A stretch of 64,000 bases of DNA from Synechococcus sp. SynAce01 (GTDB lineage: Bacteria; Cyanobacteriota; Cyanobacteriia; PCC-6307; Cyanobiaceae), in the NCBI RefSeq assembly GCF_001885215.1, contig NZ_CP018091.1, positions 2,170,001 to 2,234,000 on the forward strand, written 5' to 3'. Shown piece by piece: positions 45,335-58,657 of the stretch. Made by a program: the position numbers and the translations under genes. The notes beneath the pieces were generated by a model. The model saw only the letters and a program-made list of their open reading frames with translations. It was not told the DNA's origin and did no database searches. The stretch's first letter is position 1. Each line of letters opens with the position of its first letter.

Positions 45335-45790
45335 TTGACGCCCTCCTTCCTGCCACCAGCTGAAACGCCGCGTCGCAACCGCCGACCACGCAAGCGGGAG
45401 TTGTTCTGCCCAGCCCACCCTGAGCAGCAGTTGCTGGGCAACGGCCGCAAGTATTTTTTGCATCTGCTCACCCCCGAAGAGCTCAAGCAACGGGGCATGA
45501 GCGACAAGAAGGCCCGCCTGCTGATCCAGGCCTACCCGGTGCTGGTGCTCAGCAACGAATGGCTGGAGCAACTGTTCTGTCCTGAGTGCGGCTGCAGCCG
45601 CTGGTGCCATGTGGCACGGCTGGATCGGGTGGAGCACACGGTGCGCTGGGCACCGCGCGAACTCTGGGAGCAGGTGGCCCATGTGGATCCGGTGGTGGCC
45701 AACCCGAGCGTGAGCGAGTTCAGCCGCCGGGAAGCAGGGCGCCAGCGTCAGAAGCGTGCCGACAACAGCCGGTACTTCGATCCTGGCTAG
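45335..45790 (+). CDS. conserved hypothetical protein with zinc-finger-like cysteines
   Basis: A 151-residue basic protein with a TTG start. Cysteines occur in ELFCPAHPEQQ and LFCPECGCSRWCH, a pattern that could bind one zinc. Between them is an aliphatic helix (KKARLLIQAYPVLVL). It is presumably soluble and may bind nucleic acid. No named family is recognised. It follows polA by 85 bases and overlaps the convergent dehydratase gene by four. Confidence 0.65.
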   Translation: MTPSFLPPAETPRRNRRPRKRELFCPAHPEQQLLGNGRKYFLHLLTPEELKQRGMSDKKARLLIQAYPVLVLSNEWLEQLFCPECGCSRWCHVARLDRVEHTVRWAPRELWEQVAHVDPVVANPSVSEFSRREAGRQRQKRADNSRYFDPG

Positions 45791-47772
45791 GGGGTGATTG
45801 CGGGCTCATTATTCGCAGTATTCGGCCCGTACTCGGGCACCAGTTGCTGCAGAACAGCCACAGCAGCTTGCTCATCCCAGACCGCCAGAGCCTGTTCCAT
45901 CTGGTCCATCAGCTCGGAGAGGCGATCGGCGGCTAGAGCGCTCTCGTGGGCCAGATGAATCAGCGGATGGGCGGTGGGACAATCTGAGTCCCCGATCAGC
46001 AGCTCCTCATAGAGCTTCTCGCCGGGTCGTAGGCCCGTGAACTGGATCGAGATGTCGCCGTCGGGATGGTTGGCGTCGCGGAGTCGGCAACCGGAGAGCC
46101 GAACCATCTGGCGCGCGAGGTCAACGATGCGCAACGGTTCGCCCATGTCGAGCAGGAAGACCTCACCGCCCTGGGCGAGGCCCGCGGCCTGCAGCACCAG
46201 CTGGGCCGCCTCCGGAATGGTCATGAAGTAGCGGGTGATCTCGGGGTGGGTCACGGTGAGCGGCCCGCCGCTGGCGATCTGCTCACGAAACAAGGGCACC
46301 ACCGAACCGGAAGACCCGAGCACGTTGCCGAAGCGAACCATCGAGCAGACCGGACCCGCTCCGGTGGCGGTGATCCTGGCCGCGGCAGCCTGAACCAGCA
46401 GTTCACAGGCGCGCTTGCTGGCCCCCATCACATTGGTGGGGCGCACGGCTTTGTCGGTGGAAATCAGGATGAAGCGTTCGAGATCGCAGGCCATGGCGGC
46501 CTCCAGGACCGAGCGGGTGCCCAGGAGGTTGTTGCACAGCCCCGCACAGATGTTGCCCTCCACCAGAGGCACGTGTTTGTAGGCCGCTGCGTGGAACAGC
46601 GCATCAACGTTGTGCTCCAGCAGGAGTTGTTGGAGGCGCGATTGATCCCGCACATCGCCCAGCAGAGGAATCAGCAACGGATGGCTGTGCAGGCCCGGTT
46701 CCGTCGCCAGCGATCCGAGTAACTCCTGCTCGATGGCGTAGAGGCCGGCTTCGCTCTGTTCCAGCAACACCAGCCGGGCGGGCTGCTGGCGCAGGATCTG
46801 GCGGCAGAGTTCCGAACCGATCGAGCCGCCGGCACCGGTGACCAAAACCGAGCGCCCGCAGACCGGAAGCCGCAGCAGATCAGGGTCAGGCGGGCTGGGG
46901 TCGCGGCCGAGCAGCTCCTCGATCGCCACGGGGCGGAGATCGGTCACGGCCTGTTCGCCCGTGGCGATCCGGGACAGGGAGGGCATCAAGAGCACGGTCA
47001 AGCCCATCCCACGGAGCTGCAGCGCCAATTCGCGTCGCCTGACCAATGGAGCTGAGGGGATGGCCAGCAGTACCTGGCGGATGCCGTAGCGATCAATCAG
47101 CGCCGCCAGATCACGGCTGGAATGGACCGGCAGCTGCTGCAGCTGCCGCCCGCTGAGCGTGGGGTCATCATCCACCGCCGCCACGAGCTCGAAGCGCGGG
47201 TGGTGGCGCAACTCAGAGAGCAGCAATGAGGCGGCCTGGCCAGCGCCGAACACCAGGGTGGGAATTTTGGGGCTCGCTGGACGAGAGGCCAACGCCACAG
47301 CCGCTGGGCCGTCGCCGCGGACGCGCAGCCAGTAACGCAACAGATCACGCAACACAATCCGGCTGGCGATCAGGGCACCTGAACAGAACAGCCAGACCAG
47401 CGGCCAGAAGGCACGGAAGGGCGGATCGTCATGGCCAACCAGGGTGCTCACCAGCAGCACCAGCAAGACGATCAAGGCCGTGCGAGGCAGCAGGGCATAG
47501 AGCGCATGACTACCCGTGTAACGCGTCAGACCCCGATACCAGCCACTGATCCCCAGCACGGCGATGCCGATGGCCACCGCCAAGGGCAACAGGAACAGAT
47601 TGCTGCGCAACATCGGCGAGAACGGTTGATTCAGCCGCAGGGCGAAGGGCAGCCAGAAGCTGAACACGAACAGGGCCGAATCAAGGGCGATCAGCATCAG
47701 GCGCCGGCTCAGCACCTCGGGGAAGGGCAGCGCCTCCAGCAGGCGCAGAACAAGCCGATCAGGCCGGATCAT
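45787..47772 (-). CDS. FlaA1/WbpM-type UDP-sugar 4,6-dehydratase
   Basis: A 661-residue membrane-bound protein: four N-terminal transmembrane helices, a Rossmann-like domain with GAGQAASLLLSEL, then a catalytic SDR domain with VTGAGGSIGSELCRQI and ISTDKAVRPTNVMGASK. The SMK triad (Met replacing Tyr) is typical of WbpM/CapD dehydratases, which convert UDP-GlcNAc to a 4-keto-6-deoxy sugar for capsule or LPS. It is the last gene of the exosortase operon; its ATG overlaps the preceding stop (ATGA). Confidence 0.92.
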   Translation of the reverse strand: MIRPDRLVLRLLEALPFPEVLSRRLMLIALDSALFVFSFWLPFALRLNQPFSPMLRSNLFLLPLAVAIGIAVLGISGWYRGLTRYTGSHALYALLPRTALIVLLVLLVSTLVGHDDPPFRAFWPLVWLFCSGALIASRIVLRDLLRYWLRVRGDGPAAVALASRPASPKIPTLVFGAGQAASLLLSELRHHPRFELVAAVDDDPTLSGRQLQQLPVHSSRDLAALIDRYGIRQVLLAIPSAPLVRRRELALQLRGMGLTVLLMPSLSRIATGEQAVTDLRPVAIEELLGRDPSPPDPDLLRLPVCGRSVLVTGAGGSIGSELCRQILRQQPARLVLLEQSEAGLYAIEQELLGSLATEPGLHSHPLLIPLLGDVRDQSRLQQLLLEHNVDALFHAAAYKHVPLVEGNICAGLCNNLLGTRSVLEAAMACDLERFILISTDKAVRPTNVMGASKRACELLVQAAAARITATGAGPVCSMVRFGNVLGSSGSVVPLFREQIASGGPLTVTHPEITRYFMTIPEAAQLVLQAAGLAQGGEVFLLDMGEPLRIVDLARQMVRLSGCRLRDANHPDGDISIQFTGLRPGEKLYEELLIGDSDCPTAHPLIHLAHESALAADRLSELMDQMEQALAVWDEQAAVAVLQQLVPEYGPNTANNEPAITP

Positions 47773-48281
47773 CGGGGCAGGCTTTCCCACAGGCAAGTGT
47801 TGGCGCGGTAAGGCCGCAGGCCGGCCAGCCAGGTCCCAATCTCCTGTGGGCTGGGCCGTTGGGGGGCCTTCCAGGCCTGCCAGGCCGCGTCGGTGGGCTG
47901 CTCGCTCAGGATCGTTCCATTCCTATCCAGCACGACGCAGCGCCCTTTGCTGCCCGGTCCGATCAGGGCCGGGCCGATCGCCTCGACAGGCATTTCGACG
48001 CCGGTGCCGCTGCTGGCCAAGGTGAGCAGACGCAGCCGAATCGGTGCCCCCCCGCCAGCGCCGGCGGGCTGGTAGTTGGCTGCTGCCACCAGGGTGAGTG
48101 CTGGCGGGGGATCGCCAGGATCGTCAGCCGCCGGCCCCCGCTGGTAGAGACGGCCCTGACGCTCGAGTTGATCCGGCAAGGCTGGCCACGGCCCGGCCCC
48201 GGGCGAGCGGAACCAGGTTTCCAGTGAGAGCAGCGTGGCCCAACCGGCCAGGGCGAAGAGAGCCCACGGTGCCCCAGTCAT
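47769..48281 (-). CDS. cyanoexosortase system-associated protein
   Basis: A 170-residue protein with one N-terminal transmembrane helix and a periplasmic domain ending in TWLAGLRPYRANTCLWESL. Position, size and sequence style match the cyanoexosortase A system-associated family, always found next to the exosortase and of unknown biochemistry. It overlaps both neighbours by ATGA. Confidence 0.8.
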   Translation of the reverse strand: MTGAPWALFALAGWATLLSLETWFRSPGAGPWPALPDQLERQGRLYQRGPAADDPGDPPPALTLVAAANYQPAGAGGGAPIRLRLLTLASSGTGVEMPVEAIGPALIGPGSKGRCVVLDRNGTILSEQPTDAAWQAWKAPQRPSPQEIGTWLAGLRPYRANTCLWESLPR

Positions 48282-49189
48282 GGCTTTGTGCCCTGCATCA
48301 GGCGGGTGTGGCGCAGATTCAGCTCCAGCACCAGCACCCACAGCAGGCAGGTCAGGGCCATGGCCGCCAGCGAGAAGAGATTCGCGCCCAGCCCCTCATG
48401 CCAGAAGCTGAAGCTGCGCCACTGGTCCAGGCCTTCGAGGCCGGGGCTGAAATCGGTGTAGGCCAGCAAGACGATACGCAGCGTATTGACAACGAACGCC
48501 ATCACAACAGCGAGCAGGCCCAGAACGATTCCGGCTGCCAGAGAACGCCATCGCGAGGGGAAGGGCGGACGGGCAGGAGGTGGCAGCAGAATCACCAAGA
48601 CCAATGCCGCCGCCAGGCAGAGCGCCATGGTGTTCACGCCCGTGCAGCTGGCATCCACCACCAGAACTTTGTCATTCAAGAGGATGTTTCTGCCCTCGGA
48701 GAAGGCAGGACGACCCAGCACCCAGAGCAGCAGCGAGGAGATCCAGGCGGTGAGCGAGGCCAGAGCATCGGTGGGCAGGAAGCGATTGATCAACACCTGG
48801 CCCGGCAGCAAAGCGCCAATCAGGCCCAGGCTGGCCAGATCAGTGGAGCGCCAGGCCAGGCCGCTGAGCAGGCCCAGCCCCAGCAGGGAAGCCAGGGGCA
48901 GCAGATGCAGCAAGGGGTCGTAGAGGCGAGCCACGCGGCTGAGCACCAGCAGGCTCCAGAGCAGCAACAGCAGGGCAGGCACCACCCTGTAGCCCGACAA
49001 CTGCTGCAGGGGAGGGTTGGAACCCTGCTCTTCGCGCTCCAACAGCAGCAAGCCCCCCGCCAGCCAGGAGAGGCTGGCCATGATGGCGAAATCAGCCAAG
49101 CCCGAGCGGACCAGCAAGGTGAGCTGGGCTGCCGCAAGGGAGCAGAGCAGGGTGAGCCGAGCCCAGCCTTCCGCCGAGGCCCGGATCAT
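48278..49189 (-). CDS. exosortase (cyanoexosortase A type)
   Basis: A 303-residue membrane protease/transpeptidase with about eight helices. The exosortase triad is visible: Cys in VVDASCTGVNTMAL, Arg in VVNTLRIVLLAYTD and His in FWHEGLGANLFSL. Exosortases cut CTERM-tailed proteins and are tied to extracellular polysaccharide. It sits between the HpsJ-like and associated genes with ATGA overlaps on both sides; a CTERM-like protein lies 3.4 kb away at 52610. Confidence 0.9.
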   Translation of the reverse strand: MIRASAEGWARLTLLCSLAAAQLTLLVRSGLADFAIMASLSWLAGGLLLLEREEQGSNPPLQQLSGYRVVPALLLLLWSLLVLSRVARLYDPLLHLLPLASLLGLGLLSGLAWRSTDLASLGLIGALLPGQVLINRFLPTDALASLTAWISSLLLWVLGRPAFSEGRNILLNDKVLVVDASCTGVNTMALCLAAALVLVILLPPPARPPFPSRWRSLAAGIVLGLLAVVMAFVVNTLRIVLLAYTDFSPGLEGLDQWRSFSFWHEGLGANLFSLAAMALTCLLWVLVLELNLRHTRLMQGTKP

Positions 49190-50004
49190 GCGGCAGTCTC
49201 GCCCGAATCTGATTCGGGCTCCAGCTCGTCGTCTTCCAAAGCCTGCCTGAGCCGGCGGGCCTCAAGCACCCGCTCCACGGTGGTCTGCAACGACCGCGGC
49301 CAGATGAACGCCGCAGCGAGGTAATACAAGGAATAGAACAGTGCTGTGAGGCCAAGCCTCACCATCTGGCGGGCCAGCTGACCGGAGGCATTGGCGCGCG
49401 CCACCTGGCTCTGGCGGCGCAGGTTGGCCTCGGCCCTGGTGAGCAGCCGTTCCACTTGCTGTCGCAGCTCCGGCAGCGTGCTGTTCTGATCCAGGGGGGT
49501 TCCCTCCTGTTGCAGGGCCTGCAGGATCTGGGGCTGGCCGGCCACCACCCGCCGCAGCCGCTCCACGCTGGTTTCCCCATCCAGCTGCCTGCGGAACTCG
49601 CTCAGGCTCTCCTGGGAGGTGCGCACCTGACCCTCAAATGAAGCCGACGCGTTAGTGGAGATCTGTTGCCCCACCCCGACCACCGCCACGGCCGTGAGCA
49701 AGTAAAGCAGGGCTGCCAGGCGCAGCAGAGGCCGCAGCCAACGCGCCAGCCAGCATTCCCAGAGGGCCGGCAGGGCGTCGCCGCTGAAACCAAAGAACAG
49801 AAACAACAGCGCCACCGCTGGCAGGGTGGAGCGCTCCAGCACCTCAGCCATCACCGCCAACAGTCGCTGGGAATCACCGAACGGGGGCGGCAGCAGCGTT
49901 GTCAGCACACTGGCCAGGAACACCAACAACAAGGTGTAGGAGCAGAGGCGTCCGAGGCTGCGAGCTTTGCGACGGCTGAAGTCGTCCTGCAACTCAATTG
50001 TCAT
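49186..50004 (-). CDS. HpsJ-like exosortase-associated membrane protein
   Basis: A 272-residue protein: three hydrophobic segments in the first 110 residues, then a long coiled-coil-like periplasmic or cytoplasmic helix (SQESLSEFRRQLDGET, LRQQVERLLTRAEANLRRQ), one more helix and an acidic tail. It resembles HpsJ of the hormogonium polysaccharide system, a form of which accompanies cyanoexosortase A. It is the first gene of the four-gene operon and is divergent from the kinase gene. Confidence 0.78.
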   Translation of the reverse strand: MTIELQDDFSRRKARSLGRLCSYTLLLVFLASVLTTLLPPPFGDSQRLLAVMAEVLERSTLPAVALLFLFFGFSGDALPALWECWLARWLRPLLRLAALLYLLTAVAVVGVGQQISTNASASFEGQVRTSQESLSEFRRQLDGETSVERLRRVVAGQPQILQALQQEGTPLDQNSTLPELRQQVERLLTRAEANLRRQSQVARANASGQLARQMVRLGLTALFYSLYYLAAAFIWPRSLQTTVERVLEARRLRQALEDDELEPESDSGETAA

Positions 50005-50149: not shown

Positions 50150-52531
50150 ATGGCTTCCAGCACACCGGACACCCCAGCGCCAACCGCCTATGCGCTGCTG
50201 CCGGCGGCCACGCCCCGAGAAGAAAGTGGCGGCATTGGCCTTAATGGGATTGTTCGGATGCTGCGGCGTCGCCGCCGCATTTTTCTGATCACCGCGGTGG
50301 CCGTCACGCTGGTCGCGGGTCTGCGCGCGGTCTATTTGCGCATCAACAATCCGGTGTTTCTGGGCGGCTTCAGCCTGCTGATCTCCGATCCGATCAATGA
50401 GAGCGGCGGGGCCGGCGGGGAAGCCGGTGCCGGTACCGGCGCCATCGCTTCGGTGGCCCGCAACGTCAGCCGCAACGACGTGCCCACCTTGATCCGGGTG
50501 CTGGAGAGCCCAGCGGTGCTGGAGCCAGTGGTCAGCGAACTGCAGAGCCGTTATCCCGATCAGGCGATTCCCCAGGTGGACGTGAGCCTGGTGGCCGCCG
50601 ATCCCAACCAGGCCAATCCAATCCTGGCGGCGGGTGTGCTCTCCGTGCAAGCCAGAGGTGGCAGCCCTGAGATAGTGAAGGAGACCCTGCTGCTCACAGA
50701 GCAGGCCTACCTGAACTGGGCCCTGCAGCAGCGCCGGGAGAAGCTCAACGAAGGGGTCAAATTCCTTGATAAACAGGCTCCTGATCTGCAGGCGCGCAGC
50801 ACTGAGCTCCAGGGCGAACTCGAGCGCTTCCGAACCAGCAACAACGTGTTGGCGCCTGAGGCGGAAGCGGCCTCGGTACGCGGCCAGGCCGAAACGCTGC
50901 GCCAGTCGTTGGAGAACCAGCTGGCTGAGCGTCGCCGTCTGCAGCAGGTGCGCGCCGATGTGGCCGCCGGGCGGCTGACAGCCCGCACCTTCACAAGCAC
51001 CGCTGGAGATGGAGGTGGCAGCGAATCAGCCCGATCGGGCACGAGCGTGACCCTTGATGTGCCCAACCAACCTCTGCTCAGCGAACTCAACCGCTTAGAC
51101 GCCGAGATCGCCACGGCCCGCTCGATCTACACCGCCAATTCGCCTTTCCTGGTCAACTTGATCAGCGCTCGCGAGAAGCTGCAGCCAGCGCTGCAGCGCA
51201 AGGAACTTGAAGCGGTGGATGCCACCCTGCAGCAGCTGGACGGGTCGATCGCGGCACTGCGCTCCCAGATTGGCGGCACCGACGCCCGTTTCCGCAGCCA
51301 ACCAGCGCTGCTGCGCGAATACGAAGCCCTCCAGTCCAAATTGGCCATCGCCCAGGGAAACCTGGCGAGTTACCAAAGCACCCGCGATCAATTCCAGTTG
51401 GAGATCGCCCAGAGCAACGTGCCCTGGAAGGTGATCGGCCCCACGGCGGTGAATCCAAACCCCGTGGCACCGCTGCTGGGCCAAGGGCTGCTGCAAGGCT
51501 TGCTATTCGGCGTGGCCGCCGGAGCTGGTGCGGCCCTGATTCGTGATCGCCTCGATCATGTGTTCCACTCGGCCGGTGAAGTGCGTGACGAACTCAAGGT
51601 GCCGCTACTGGGTCACATTCCCTACATTTCGTTTTTCGAAGGGGTGCGGCGCGACAAGCGCTTCCTGTTCAAAGACCTTGACGCCCAGCAGACCGGCATG
51701 GCCGGCTACCAGCGTTTCACCTATCAAGAAGCCTTCCGTAACCTCTACACAAGCCTGCGCTTCTTGAACAGCGACCGAACAGTGAAATCGGTGGCCGTGA
51801 GCAGTTCGGTGCCCTCGGAGGGCAATAGTTTGCTGATTGTGCTGCTGGCCAAAACCCTGAGTGAACTGGGCAAGCGGGTGCTGCTGATTGATGCCGACCT
51901 ACGCCAACCCCAGGTGCATCACAGGCTCGGACTGAACAACTTGAGCGGCCTTTCCAACCTGCTCACGGACCAGGGCACTGACTGGCGCTCCATGCTGCAG
52001 ACCGTGCCAGAACATCCCAGTTTGCAGGTGATCACTGCCGGCCGGCGCGTGCCGGATCCACCGCGGCTGTTGAGCTCTGAGCGAATGGGCCATCTGGTCA
52101 AGGAGATTGCCGACACCGACGCTTTCGACCTGATTCTGTACGACACCCCACCAGCCCTGGGATTGGCCGATGCCTCCCTGCTGGCCGAAAACCTCGACGG
52201 CATCCTCTTGGTGGTGGGCCTGAACAAGGTGGACCGCCAGCTCCCGGCTCAGGCGGTGGAGCGCATCAAGTCCGCCGGTGCCCCGCTTCTGGGCGTGGTG
52301 ACCAATTCGCGGATCGCCACGGGAGATCGCACCAACATTTACGGCTACTCAGGCTATGGCTATGGGAGTTACAGTGAGGGAGCTCAAGGACTTGATCCAA
52401 GCACCGCTTACAATTACTATTCCGATATCCATTCTGAGCCAAGCCCCTCACCCAGGGGGCTGGCTTCCTTGGCTCCCAATCGCCAAAATCTCAAGCGCTG
52501 GAAAAAGGGGCTTGACACCTGGCTCAAATAA
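50150..52531 (+). CDS. Wzc-type tyrosine autokinase with altered Walker A
   Basis: A 793-residue polysaccharide co-polymerase: two transmembrane helices flank a Wzz domain with coiled coils (residues about 230-310 and 370-420), followed by a BY-kinase domain. Walker A' (VLLIDADLRQPQ) and Walker B (LILYDTPPALG) are normal, and a tyrosine cluster (NIYGYSGYGYGSY) ends the protein. The Walker A loop reads VPSEGNSLL: the ATP-binding Lys is Asn559 (AAT at 51824-51826). Kinase activity may be lost, or the protein may be a regulator. It is divergent from the exosortase operon. Confidence 0.9.
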   Translation: MASSTPDTPAPTAYALLPAATPREESGGIGLNGIVRMLRRRRRIFLITAVAVTLVAGLRAVYLRINNPVFLGGFSLLISDPINESGGAGGEAGAGTGAIASVARNVSRNDVPTLIRVLESPAVLEPVVSELQSRYPDQAIPQVDVSLVAADPNQANPILAAGVLSVQARGGSPEIVKETLLLTEQAYLNWALQQRREKLNEGVKFLDKQAPDLQARSTELQGELERFRTSNNVLAPEAEAASVRGQAETLRQSLENQLAERRRLQQVRADVAAGRLTARTFTSTAGDGGGSESARSGTSVTLDVPNQPLLSELNRLDAEIATARSIYTANSPFLVNLISAREKLQPALQRKELEAVDATLQQLDGSIAALRSQIGGTDARFRSQPALLREYEALQSKLAIAQGNLASYQSTRDQFQLEIAQSNVPWKVIGPTAVNPNPVAPLLGQGLLQGLLFGVAAGAGAALIRDRLDHVFHSAGEVRDELKVPLLGHIPYISFFEGVRRDKRFLFKDLDAQQTGMAGYQRFTYQEAFRNLYTSLRFLNSDRTVKSVAVSSSVPSEGNSLLIVLLAKTLSELGKRVLLIDADLRQPQVHHRLGLNNLSGLSNLLTDQGTDWRSMLQTVPEHPSLQVITAGRRVPDPPRLLSSERMGHLVKEIADTDAFDLILYDTPPALGLADASLLAENLDGILLVVGLNKVDRQLPAQAVERIKSAGAPLLGVVTNSRIATGDRTNIYGYSGYGYGSYSEGAQGLDPSTAYNYYSDIHSEPSPSPRGLASLAPNRQNLKRWKKGLDTWLK

Positions 52532-52609
52532 GCCAATTCTGCACCGTGCCACTTCCGCGACTGTCCAGCTGATGAAGTCAAACGCTCAAGTCTTGTAATA
52601 ATCAATTTC

Positions 52610-53416
52610 ATGATCAGTCATTCGCCACGCTTCTTCTCTGCCCTTACTCTTGGGGCAGCTGTGGTTGGCTTCGGGCTTGTGGCGCCATAATCGGCTAATG
52701 CGCTTACGCCTGTTGCTCAAGAGTTGTTCATTTCAATCGATGTGTCTGGCAGCATCGATACATCCGAATATAACTTACAACTTGGTGGATATCAACTCGC
52801 TTTTCTTGACCCCGTTGTCCAGGCAAATATAGTCAACTCAGGAGGTATTGCTGTTGCTGTAGGTCAGTGGAGTACAACTGCTTTTGCTCCCTCCATTGGC
52901 TGGACTTTGCTCCAGACTAATGCTGAAATCACAGCTTTCGCTAATCTATTTCCCGGCCTTGCAAGGGAAGGTGACGATTTCACCTGCATCAGTTGTGGCA
53001 TCAACGCAGGGGTTGCTCAGATTACAAGTAATGAGTACCACTCTTCTAATCTTGTTATTGATGTTTCAGGTGATGGAGTAGCCAATAGTCCTGGCAATGA
53101 CGAAAATGCAAGACTGGAAACTGTAGCTGCTAGGAATGCTGCTGAAGCTGCTGGCATTCGGGTCAATGGCTTGCCGATTGGAGGAGGTAATGCTCTTCTT
53201 ACATATTTTCAAGATAATGTCATTACAGCAGATGGGTTTGCAGTTCAGGCAAACTCTTTTGCTGATTTCGATGATGCTGTTCGCGACAAGATCGTGACAG
53301 AAGTTGTTCCCTCTCCATTCTCTGCTGTTGCAGTTGCACCATTTTTAGCATGTCTTGCTAAGCTCAGAAGACGATACACTTCAACTAGCAGCAAAAGCTC
53401 TTACAAAATGTCCTGA
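52610..53416 (+). pseudogene. DUF1194 (VWA-like) CTERM-tailed protein with in-frame stop
   Basis: From ATG 52610 the frame encodes a signal peptide (SALTLGAAVVGFGLVAP), a TAA at 52688-52690, then SANALTPVAQ and a complete DUF1194 domain with a metal-site motif DVSGS. The tail ends VPSPFSAVAVAPFLAC followed by LRRR, a CTERM-like sorting signal (VPxP, helix, Arg cluster). A single change (CAA to TAA) would explain the stop. Without it the protein would be about 268 residues and exported. The gene is much more AT-rich than its neighbours, implying recent acquisition. No clear ribosome binding site is seen. Confidence 0.8.
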
Positions 53417-53880
53417 CCGTTTAAAGCCGGATATAGTTTTAAATTTCTCTATCTTCCGTTGGTAGACTTTTCCGGAATGGTTAAAGTCATTTACCCTTTA
53501 ATGCAACGGGCTGGCGATAATTTTTCCTGTTCCAATTGGGTTGATTATTAATGGTTTCGACAGATTTGGATTCCTTTTTTGTGGACAGATGACAGCTTCT
53601 AGTGGTATTGAGTTAAGAGCTAAAGAAGTGAAAGCTGCTGATCAGGCGTTCTGTTTTAAGTAAGCTGGTTGTTGTGAGCTTATAGACGCGAAAGTCACAA
53701 GCAGAAATGTGGCGCCACGGAGAAGCTTGATAGGAATGACAATTTCAGTGTGATCAAAAATCGAAAAGTACCAGAGTCTTGATCAGGTGAATTGATGGAA
53801 AAAAACAACAGTACCTGCTCTGATCCTTGGCTCTGACGGTTCGTTTCTGCCTTCTGTCCCTAGGTGTTGGCAGCATTTTC
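53417..53880. other. AT-rich intergenic island, no gene seen
   Basis: About 460 bases following the DUF1194 gene have the same low GC as that gene. I see no convincing coding frame, tRNA or repeat in them. Several T- and A-runs occur. The GC content returns to the local high value around 53880, where decayed transferase sequence begins, so this is probably the right-hand part of a transferred segment. Confidence 0.6.
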
Positions 53881-53883
53881 AAA

Positions 53884-54100
53884 AGGCACTGCAGTCGTGC
53901 GCTCCAGCCATCGACCCCAGCCACCAGGAGTAATCCAAGACCATCACAGGAAACCCAGCAGGGCTCCCACGAGGGGCTCGAGCCACGCCTGTCCGGAGTT
54001 GATCGCGGCTGGGGCAAAGATCAGCAGGGAACACACGTGACCAGGGCAACGGCCAGCAGCAGCCGGCTGAACCAGGCGCCGACGAACACCGCCGTGATCG
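53884..54100 (-). pseudogene. decayed copy of WecA/MraY-like transferase
   Basis: Blocks of this stretch match the intact transferase gene (56796-57734) in the same order and orientation, with parts missing between them: 53884-53930 resembles 56831-56880, 53938-54028 resembles 57205-57297, and 54042-54065 resembles 57372-57395. Frames are interrupted. This is a second, deletion-riddled copy. Confidence 0.75.
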
Positions 54101-54300
54101 AGGCGGCTGCACGTTGAAGGGCTGGGGCGGACGCCAGGGCAGATCAGCGCTCAACCGCAACACCGCTTCAAAGGCTTTCGGTGCCAGCAGCAGCGGTGCA
54201 GCCGGCAACGGGCCGCGCGCGGATTACCCGCCTGGATCCGCTCCAAGGGAAACACCTGCACCTCATCCTGGAACAGACAAGTGCGTGCGCCCATCAAGCG
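54101..54300 (-). pseudogene. decayed copy of the sugar epimerase C-terminus
   Basis: The sequence matches the 3' end of the intact epimerase (57735-57950), including the peptides RIQAGNPRAARCRL (intact: RIQAGDPRAARCRL) and FEAVLRLSADL. The reading frame is shifted and truncated. It follows the transferase remnant as in the intact operon, so the transferase-epimerase pair was duplicated together. Confidence 0.75.
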
Positions 54301-54400
54301 CCCATCCTTCAGGCTGATCCTGGGCAGGCAAGTGTCTCTAGTCGATAGCGAAGCCCCCACAGCTCAAGGAAGTGTCTTACTGAGCCATGGGAGAATTCGC

Positions 54401-54607
54401 ATGCGCATCACCAGCAAGGGCCAGGTCACGATCCCCCAGGCCATTCGTGAGCAGGCGGGCTTGCATCCCAGCTGTGGGGTGCAGTTTCGGCTGGTTGGCG
54501 ATCGGGTGGTGCTCGAGAAGGTGGAAGACGAGGGGCCTCAGCGCGCCCAGGAGGCGATGGTGGATTCCTATGTGCTGCTGGATGTGATCACCGGGCCCGC
54601 TGCCTAA
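54401..54607 (+). CDS. AbrB/MazE-type antitoxin, truncated and fused to toxin start
   Basis: A 68-residue protein with a swapped-hairpin AbrB DNA-binding domain (RITSKGQVTIPQAIREQAGL). Instead of a normal toxin-binding tail, the frame runs into VDSYVLLDVITG, the start of a PIN-domain toxin, then stops. The antitoxin tail has probably been deleted. GGGAG (54389-54393) may be the ribosome site. DNA binding could persist without toxin neutralisation. Confidence 0.75.
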   Translation: MRITSKGQVTIPQAIREQAGLHPSCGVQFRLVGDRVVLEKVEDEGPQRAQEAMVDSYVLLDVITGPAA

Positions 54608-56218: not shown

Positions 56219-56662
56219 GTGTTTCTACTGGATACGGTTGTCATCTCAGAACTGCGCAGGCGTGGGCGGGATCCAGGCGTGGTGGCCTGGCTCAGTGAGC
56301 AGAATTCCGATGATCTCTATCTAAGTGTGATCAGTCTTGGAGAGATCGAGCGGGGCATCGTGATTAAGCAGAAGGTTGATGCCGTATTCGCCAGGCGTCT
56401 GCAGGGCTGGCTGGAGGGATTGCTGTTGTTGTATGGCCAGCGAATCCTTCCTGTCGATGGTGCCATCGCCAGACGCTGGGGCCAGCTTTCAGCGGAGATC
56501 GGCCATGACGGCGCTGACCTGATGATCGCAGCCACGGCACTGGAGCACGGATTGCAGGTGGTGACACGCAACGTTCGCCATTTCATCCCCACAGGGGTGC
56601 AGGTGCTGAATCCCTTCAGCCCAGAATCCCCGCCAACCGTTCCACCGCTGCCGCCCAGGTGA
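56219..56662 (+). CDS. VapC/FitB-type PIN toxin, Asn-to-Val in the first motif
   Basis: A 147-residue PIN-domain ribonuclease with a GTG start. The first acidic site reads LLDTVVISELRR; nearly all relatives have LDTNVISEL. The other acidic residues are in SLGEIERG and GADLMIAATALEHGLQVVTRN. The C-terminal tail is Pro-rich. It is paired with the Phd antitoxin just upstream. Loss of the Asn could weaken metal binding. Confidence 0.87.
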   Translation: MFLLDTVVISELRRRGRDPGVVAWLSEQNSDDLYLSVISLGEIERGIVIKQKVDAVFARRLQGWLEGLLLLYGQRILPVDGAIARRWGQLSAEIGHDGADLMIAATALEHGLQVVTRNVRHFIPTGVQVLNPFSPESPPTVPPLPPR

Positions 56663-56795: not shown

Positions 56796-57734
56796 TCACC
56801 GATCCGCCTGCTGAACCGCCGTGGAAAACGGCACCGCCAGCGTGCGATCGAGCGCCACACCCCAGGCCAGCACCACGGCCGCCGCAGCCGACCCAGCCAC
56901 CCCGCCACCCGCCAGCAGCGCCGCACCGATCAGCGCGGTTGCCACCAGGTAGACCAGGCACACCCGACGGTGCGACCAGCCGGCCTGCTGCAGGCGCTGG
57001 TAGAGGTGCAGCCGATGGGCCTGGAACACCGGCTGGCCGGCCATCAGCCGCCGCAGTACGCAGATCAGGGCATCGGCCAGCAACGGCACGGCCACCAGCA
57101 GCAACGCCAGGCCATCGGCAACGCCGGGAGCCTGCAGCACCACCCCGGCGAACACCGCACCAAGGAAGGTGCTGCCCACATCGCCCATGAACAGCCGCGC
57201 CGGGCTCCAGTTCCAGATCAGGAAGCCCAGCAGGGCCCCCACCAGGGGCCAGAGCCAGGACGCTCCGGAGCTGATCGCGGCTACGGCGAACACCACGGCC
57301 GAGCAACCGGCCACAAGGCCATCGAGGCCATCCATGAAATTGAAGAAGTTGATCACTGCCGTGATCGCCACTAAGGCAACGGCCAGCAGCAGTGGCGCAA
57401 TCGGTGACGGCCCGACGGCCAACACTAAGGCGATGGCGGTGGCCAGCTGAGCTCCGTAGCGCAGGGCCGCCGGCAGATTCAGCCGATCATCAAGGAGCCC
57501 CACCAGCGCCAGGGGCGCGCAGAGCAGCGGAACCAACGGAAAGCCCCAGAGGCAGCTCACCAACACGAAGCCCACCCCACCGCCACGCGGCGTGGGCAGG
57601 CGGTGGGCGCTGCGGGCATTGGGCTGATCGAGCAGGCCCCGGCGCAGCAGGGGCAGCAGCACCAGCAGCAGCAGCCAGCAGCTCAGTGCCGCCAGCGGCA
57701 CGCTGATCCAGGCCGAGGCGAGGGGAGTGCTCAT
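56796..57734 (-). CDS. WecA/MraY-family sugar-phosphate transferase
   Basis: A 312-residue protein with about ten transmembrane helices. The DDxxD-like GLLDDRLNLP, NFMDGLDGL, WNWSPARLFMGDVGS and HRLHLYQRL motifs are those of polyprenyl-phosphate N-acetylhexosamine-1-phosphate transferases, which start a lipid-linked glycan. It overlaps the epimerase by ATGA and is the donor of two decayed copies nearby. Confidence 0.92.
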   Translation of the reverse strand: MSTPLASAWISVPLAALSCWLLLLVLLPLLRRGLLDQPNARSAHRLPTPRGGGVGFVLVSCLWGFPLVPLLCAPLALVGLLDDRLNLPAALRYGAQLATAIALVLAVGPSPIAPLLLAVALVAITAVINFFNFMDGLDGLVAGCSAVVFAVAAISSGASWLWPLVGALLGFLIWNWSPARLFMGDVGSTFLGAVFAGVVLQAPGVADGLALLLVAVPLLADALICVLRRLMAGQPVFQAHRLHLYQRLQQAGWSHRRVCLVYLVATALIGAALLAGGGVAGSAAAAVVLAWGVALDRTLAVPFSTAVQQADR

Positions 57735-58657
57735 GGCGGCGGCTGCACCTGGAACGGCTGGGGCGAACGCCCGAGCAGATCAGCAACACAAGTAAACCCG
57801 GCCAGATCCGCGCTCAAGCGCAACACCGCCTCGAAAGTTTTCGGCGACACCAGCAGCAGCGGTGACGCCAGCCACTGAAAAAAAGAGGTGGGCAGGGTGA
57901 GCAGCCGGCAGCGGGCCGCGCGCGGATCGCCCGCCTGGATCCGCGCCAGCAGGGCGTGATAGCTGAGGGTTTCGTCTCCACCCAGCGGCAGCACGGCTGA
58001 TTCACTCAGGGGCGATTCCTTCGCGGTGCTGGCCATCTCACGCCCCTGTTGAAGAGCCACCGCAGCCAGATCGGCGGCGGCAATCGGCTGGCGCAGGCCC
58101 GTCTGGGCTGGAAGGGGAAGCAGCGGCAGCCGGCGCAACAAGCTTCGCAGCGCTTCCACATTGCGGTCGGCGTGATGGGCGCTGCGGCCGTGAATCAGGG
58201 TGGGCGCCAGGATCCGGGCGGGAACGCCCAGCTGCTCGCAGGTCTCCAGAAGCAGGGTCTGGGAGTGAGCCAGACGCGCCGCCAGCTCTCGATCGAAGCG
58301 GTTGGCGGCGAAGCGCTTGGTGATCACGCTCGACGACGAGCAAGCCACCACTCCCCTCAGCTCTGCGAGTGCTTCAGGCTTGTGGCGGGCCATCGCAGCC
58401 AGGAAGGGCGCCAGCAGCCAGATGGGGGCGAAGCCGATCCAGATCTGGGGCCCCGGGGGCAGGGCAGCGGCGGCGGCCTCAAGCCCTTGCCCCGAGAGAT
58501 CGCTGAGATCGCAGTGGTGCCAGCACAGCCCGGCCACACCTGGTGGGCGGTGTCGCCCAAGCCCAACCCAGGAGGTGCCCGCCTGCAGCAGCTTGATCAA
58601 TGCCTCAGCGCAGAGGCTGTTGGCACCGAAGATCACCAGGGTTGGCGCACCGCTCAC
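57731..58657 (-). CDS. NAD-dependent sugar epimerase/dehydratase
   Basis: A 308-residue extended-SDR protein: VIFGANSLCAEALIKLL at the nucleotide loop, a substrate region with ARILAPTLIHGR and a C-terminal AVLRLSADL. GTG 58657 gives a four-base overlap with the PIN gene upstream. The catalytic Tyr-x3-Lys is replaced by FAANRFDRELA, so activity is uncertain. Together with the transferase it probably makes the first sugar of a surface glycan. Confidence 0.8.
   Translation of the reverse strand: MSGAPTLVIFGANSLCAEALIKLLQAGTSWVGLGRHRPPGVAGLCWHHCDLSDLSGQGLEAAAAALPPGPQIWIGFAPIWLLAPFLAAMARHKPEALAELRGVVACSSSSVITKRFAANRFDRELAARLAHSQTLLLETCEQLGVPARILAPTLIHGRSAHHADRNVEALRSLLRRLPLLPLPAQTGLRQPIAAADLAAVALQQGREMASTAKESPLSESAVLPLGGDETLSYHALLARIQAGDPRAARCRLLTLPTSFFQWLASPLLLVSPKTFEAVLRLSADLAGFTCVADLLGRSPQPFQVQPPP

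Follow-up and report, generated by a model that had tools for sequence, protein, structure and literature searches.

Synechococcus sp. SynAce01 carries, directly behind a wzc-like gene, a DUF1194 gene with the build of an exosortase substrate that was probably inactivated recently by a single nonsense change inside its signal peptide. Judging by composition and synteny, the gene is most likely horizontally acquired cargo, and on comparison of tails and enzymes its C-terminal sorting signal is a second tail type tied to a distinct exosortase clade. All positions refer to the window, i.e., the whole 64,000-nucleotide stretch analysed (NZ_CP018091.1, 2,170,001 to 2,234,000, forward strand), in which the gene is laid out as follows.

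52610-53416, plus strand: frame of the interrupted substrate gene, from ATG 52610 to TGA 53414-53416.
52610-52687, plus strand: predicted signal-peptide coding stretch of 26 codons (MISHSPRFFSALTLGAAVVGFGLVAP), ended by the stop; read by translation, aligns with the signal peptides of homologues.
52688-52690, plus strand: in-frame stop codon TAA, which falls at -5 from the predicted cleavage site ANA/L; sense codons stand there in all readable homologues.
52691-53416, plus strand: 3' remainder, coding for the last residues of the signal peptide, the mature DUF1194 protein and the sorting tail, and open to the TGA.
52712-53308, plus strand: DUF1194 (PF06707) domain, containing a DxSGS motif of the kind found in vWA MIDAS sites; 148.4 bits against a gathering cut-off of 27, profile positions 2-203 of 206, same span in the genome search, 43 of 44 invariant columns kept.
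53306-53383, plus strand: type-2 C-terminal sorting tail VPSPFSAVAVAPFLACLAKLRRRYTS, assigned by tail profile and comparison.

Translation and alignment bear out the clean frame with a single TAA in the signal peptide described in an earlier note on this DNA, as well as the full DUF1194 domain it had proposed. The 268 codons contain one stop and no frameshift, and 241 open codons follow the TAA; among 20,000 composition shuffles of this 723-nt stretch, which average 12.6 stops, not one is stop-free, so the open frame is not a product of chance. The predicted cleavage site SANA/LTP lies four codons 3' of the TAA and lines up with AQA/LTV, AHA/VTN and AAA/ATT of homologues, placing the interruption within a predicted, homologue-aligned N-terminal signal peptide. 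Promoter and terminator scans gave results no better than shuffles, and a structure search with the DUF1194 profile returned no matching solved structure. The gene is single-copy in its genome (one contig, 2.75 Mb, 99.85% complete), and nothing therefore replaces the interrupted copy.

Within the same bacterial family, 14 of 400 genomes contain relatives of the gene. All 13 other homologous genes readable to the N-terminus are uninterrupted and encode both a signal peptide and a tail, and the alignment places a sense codon at the TAA position in every one, including those from other genera. Every one of the 14 holders has an exosortase, against 69 of 400 genomes overall (hypergeometric 6e-12, phylogeny not corrected). 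The copy in G002, a genome of the same genus, is damaged: its 5' end is replaced and its last third, together with the tail, is unrecognisable; its contig begins with 87 bases matching, at 86% identity, DNA beside the L021 tail gene of SynAce01, probably the end of a mobile element. A scan of genome contigs returned one distant relative. Plasmid and phage origins of the gene were both considered and rejected: plasmid DUF1194 hits all fall below 60% identity and come mostly from rhizobia and their relatives, and no viral relatives were found.

The domain has been kept as well as in intact genes. Only one of the 44 columns invariant in the 13 homologues has changed, within the range of 0-4 seen among intact homologues, and relative-rate tests detect no acceleration (p 0.18-0.58). 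Conserved domain, unaccelerated rate and lack of a second lesion together indicate a very young nonsense mutation, in line with the very recent origin proposed in the earlier note, which the undamaged frame, the tail and the sense codons of all homologues likewise favour. The apparent recency rests on the lack of further damage, to which the missing frameshifts add; since about 3% of single-base changes in the gene create a stop, missing further stops bound the age only loosely. Taken alone, the stop is an ordinary, very fresh gene loss.

Upstream of the interrupted gene lies a polysaccharide cluster that includes the only exosortase found in the genome, 3.4 kb away.

50150-52531, plus strand: Wzc-like polysaccharide chain-length/tyrosine autokinase (TIGR01007, 125 bits, above cut-off); the DUF1194 gene starts 78 bp behind it.
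49186-50004, minus strand: HpsJ-like exosortase-associated protein (NF038305, 75.8 bits, cut-off 60).
48278-49189, minus strand: divergent cyanoexosortase placed by the tree in the type-2 clade, with Cys (SCTG), Arg (VNTLR) and His (FWHEG) intact (PF09721, 55-57 bits; TIGR03763, about 70 bits).
47769-48341, minus strand: small protein after the exosortase, without a family hit in profile searches; order kept in the G003 cluster (27% identity to the neighbour there, E 6e-21).
45787-47796, minus strand: nucleotide-sugar dehydratase (Polysacc_synt_2, 380 bits) of the polysaccharide cluster.
53947-54245, minus strand: behind the substrate gene and outside it, in the flank, a degraded duplicate, with part deleted, of the wecA-like glycosyltransferase region 57219-57948 (blastn pieces 80-92% identical).

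The DUF1194 gene stands apart from this setting in composition. Its GC content by codon position (0.56/0.48/0.35, GC3 about 0.33-0.35) keeps a coding periodicity, and the GC3 of five neighbouring genes is far higher, at 0.74-0.83. The flanking cluster, from the dehydratase through the small protein, exosortase and HpsJ-like protein to wzc, has syntenic counterparts in G003, G101 and G164, with close similarity to the latter two (77% DNA identity to G101), and in none of the three does a DUF1194 gene follow wzc. Low GC3 and synteny without DUF1194 thus mark the gene, most likely, as exosortase-substrate cargo that would have arrived from elsewhere in the slot behind wzc. Between this slot and wecA the window also encodes a MazE/PrlF-like antitoxin and a PIN-domain VapC-like protein (54401-54607 and 56219-56662). 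The same interval of G164 holds other cargo, an AT-rich, intact type-2 tail gene beside wecA (L131 1014-1703, minus strand, GC3 0.34).

The tail has the layout VPSP-FSAVAVAPFLACLA-KLRRR, that is, a PxP motif, a hydrophobic segment and a basic cluster. It has no NCBIfam hit at E 10; TIGR04155 neither matches it nor finds a convincing tail anywhere in the genome, and the canonical tails of homologues likewise stay under the TIGR04155 cut-off. Used as a query, it matches two unrelated proteins of G003. Tails read from the neighbourhoods of 33 further exosortases, together with the G003 and window loci, fall into two types: type 1, VPGPLPxLGxxxAFGFSRKLRxRI, and type 2, VPSPFS followed by a proline about five residues later and then LRRRY, with variations. 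In a tree of the exosortases, for which the labels had been fixed from the tails beforehand, albeit not blind, all 10 loci with type-2 tails fall in one clade (support 100/100, stem 2.19) and all seven with type-1 tails outside it, a match equalled by none of 500 label shuffles. The window exosortase belongs to the type-2 clade, and G003 and G252 possess one enzyme of each kind, each adjoining its own tail type.

Twelve type-2 tails, among them the DUF1194 tail (47.7 bits), served to train a profile, which in a genome-wide search at E <= 0.001 had hits exclusively where a type-2 exosortase is present. Matches beyond the training tails lie in G164, G147, G234:C28, SynAce01 itself (G000:C1:1651294) and a doubtful 76-codon frame of G076. 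Among 20 genomes without a type-2 exosortase, of which six have exosortases outside the tree that are nearest to type 1 and four have none, the best match reaches E 0.0076. Three type-2 genomes (G101, G214 and G035) yielded no clear tail, so the pairing of tail and exosortase is not complete. The enzymes differ as well: type-2 exosortases read FxFWHxG at the catalytic His and nearly all type-1 enzymes FxFFH, with G035_C14 as an exception and G094, missed by the pattern, reading FAFWHGG. The window enzyme scores above the PF09721 cut-off of 25.7 with catalytic Cys, Arg and His present, and at 69.7 bits stays under the curated TIGR03763 cut-off of 150, and is thus an exosortase without being a cyanoexosortase A; four other type-2 enzymes (61-103 bits) and the two type-1 enzymes tried (105 and 130 bits) are also below that cut-off. 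Type-2 enzyme and tail reach no named NCBIfam subfamily model. With an adjacent exosortase, a matching tail type and DUF1194 confined, within the bacterial family, to exosortase-bearing genomes, the candidate exosortase substrate proposed earlier gains support, and its CTERM-like tail proves to be a real sorting tail of a specific, type-2 kind.

Two other SynAce01 genes belong beside these observations. The match at G000:C1:1651294 (L129 5689-6411, plus strand) is an uninterrupted tail gene with the tail IPSALSALALLPLAGLKRYRRR, and a possible further one lies at 1652681 on the minus strand (E 0.67). The intact protein at G000:C1:295030 (L051 5007-6062, minus strand), near mobile-element-like DNA, has a type-1-like tail, although the only exosortase found in SynAce01 is of type 2.

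The tail of the interrupted gene could also be read as decayed, the protein no longer being an exosortase substrate by the time the stop appeared. For this speak an invariant-column test, in which seven of 13 homologue-invariant tail columns differ (Fisher p 5e-5, compared with the domain), and a relative-rate test that shows acceleration of the tail (17 versus 3 changes, p 0.002). The same altered tail, however, is found again in unrelated proteins encoded next to exosortases of the same clade, which indicates a switch of tail type rather than decay and leaves the latter with next to no probability.

The slot behind wzc is filled differently in different species. In G003, a species of the same genus, it holds, 69 bp behind wzc, a gene unrelated to DUF1194 with a type-2 tail (L048 9316-9936, minus strand). 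A single TAG (L048 9823-9825) interrupts this gene at its signal-peptide site, where it falls between residues -3 and -1; its homologues in G063 (L071) and G094 (L077) are intact. In G177, G252 and G094 the slot is occupied by other tail genes with intact N-termini, and the N-terminus of the G002 tail gene at L084:11210 is broken. Scanning seven further loci added no tail genes, and the mature parts of the surveyed genes showed no damage. Counted by hand in a small set chosen after the fact, with the DUF1194 gene picked for its stop, tail genes broken at the signal peptide number 4 of 11 in the genus, compared with 1 of 44 outside it (Fisher p 0.004; p 0.017 without the DUF1194 gene). An automatic signal-peptide check was crude, passing the G003 and G234:C28 genes by mistaking tails for signal peptides. 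The excess is mild and at most suggestive; simple decay does not predict it. Two of the four genus lesions are not single stops, and the two stops, in the DUF1194 gene and in the G003 gene, are explained by repeated loss of surface cargo.

Against inactivation by a single nonsense change, it may be argued that the TAA stems from an error of sequencing or assembly, or from mutation during cultivation, and that the gene is intact in nature. The undamaged rest of the gene, domain and tail included, is what such an origin would leave; however, the genome is a single contig of high completeness, G003 has a similar lesion, and finished genomes seldom contain an isolated substitution error, which makes this origin unlikely. 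The true downstream start lacking a signal peptide, which the earlier note had named as its own refuter, has a candidate in TTG 52724, from which a 230-codon frame could yield a cytoplasmic DUF1194 protein. This TTG nevertheless sits within the conserved ELF(I/L)S(x)DVSGS stretch and has no well-spaced ribosome-binding site, its product would bear an exosortase tail without export, and the alignment, with a signal peptide in all readable homologues, contradicts it; such a start is highly improbable.

A different possibility is that the stop is retained for a function: a few ribosomes would pass it by readthrough, with a suppressor tRNA or through other recoding, and export of the substrate would be conditional. 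The unrelated type-2 substrate of the same G003 slot, also with one clean signal-peptide stop, and the concentration of the genus lesions at signal peptides are compatible with this. The two stops, however, are unlike each other: one is TAA at position -5 with TCG after it, the other TAG at -2 with GCG after it; further type-2 substrates, among them the one at C1:1651294 of SynAce01, are uninterrupted; and half of the lesions are of another kind in a set that is small and post hoc. Judged by stop conservation, a criterion of programmed readthrough, the TAA is missing from all 13 readable homologues, the base directly after it is T, and a literature search on readthrough inside bacterial signal peptides found nothing relevant. 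The readthrough suggested in the earlier note thus found no positive evidence, and recoding is very unlikely. There is an equally slender chance that selection keeps the stops of the wzc-slot cargo in this genus for low, switchable export, evolved independently in unrelated genes. The phase-variable silencing also raised earlier fares no better: a base substitution is not a mechanism of phase variation, and repeat-driven switching at the TAA was rejected, as neither a simple-sequence tract nor an inverted repeat lies there and 52300-54500 contains no repeat tract or invertible element of this kind.

Recent inactivation remains the preferred reading, and by analogy with known systems its consequences can be outlined. 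The signal peptide would direct the intact protein into Sec export, the hydrophobic C-terminal tail would anchor it in the inner membrane and the nearby exosortase would cut it at VPSP, after which the processed vWA-like protein may reach the surface or the exopolysaccharide. With translation ending at codon 27, within the signal peptide, the product would be no longer than 26 residues, and function would presumably be lost.

The case represents an exosortase-system variant that has a tail type of its own. The PEP-CTERM/exosortase (EpsH) system consists of a signal peptide, a PxP motif, a hydrophobic stretch and a basic cluster and is linked to exopolysaccharide genes (Haft 2006, PMC1569441); all these elements and an exopolysaccharide-linked sorting enzyme recur here, whereas the tail reads VPSPFS...P...LRRRY and the substrate is interrupted within its signal peptide. 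Cyanoexosortase A (TIGR03763) is the best NCBIfam match of the window enzyme, which also adjoins an HpsJ-family protein (NF050013, NF038305) but differs by its sub-threshold score, its separate clade and FxFWHxG. Cyanoexosortase B of Nostoc punctiforme, needed for normal PEP-CTERM protein levels in the exoproteome (PMC12188702), is likewise a cyanobacterial exosortase linked to polysaccharide genes, but belongs to another exosortase family, with 35 predicted substrates and a filamentous host. DUF1194 proteins near type 11 secretion loci are, in the part of the source available, Sec-exported and vWA-like with a MIDAS motif, as here, but proteobacterial and described there without an exosortase tail (PMC12282271). 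A vWA family occurs with GlyGly-CTERM, PEP-CTERM or LPXTG, the tail suiting the local sorting enzyme (PMC3237569), which fits DUF1194, also vWA-like, bearing a type-1 tail in certain genera and a type-2 tail in SynAce01; unlike there, the present swap is between two exosortase tail types inside one bacterial family.

As family models name neither the tail nor the clade, type-2 substrates are probably missed in annotation, and tail specificity could be tested naturally in genomes that have both exosortases. The wzc slot, with unrelated cargo in different species and two of these genes broken in the signal peptide, makes the turnover of exosortase cargo testable in small cyanobacteria.
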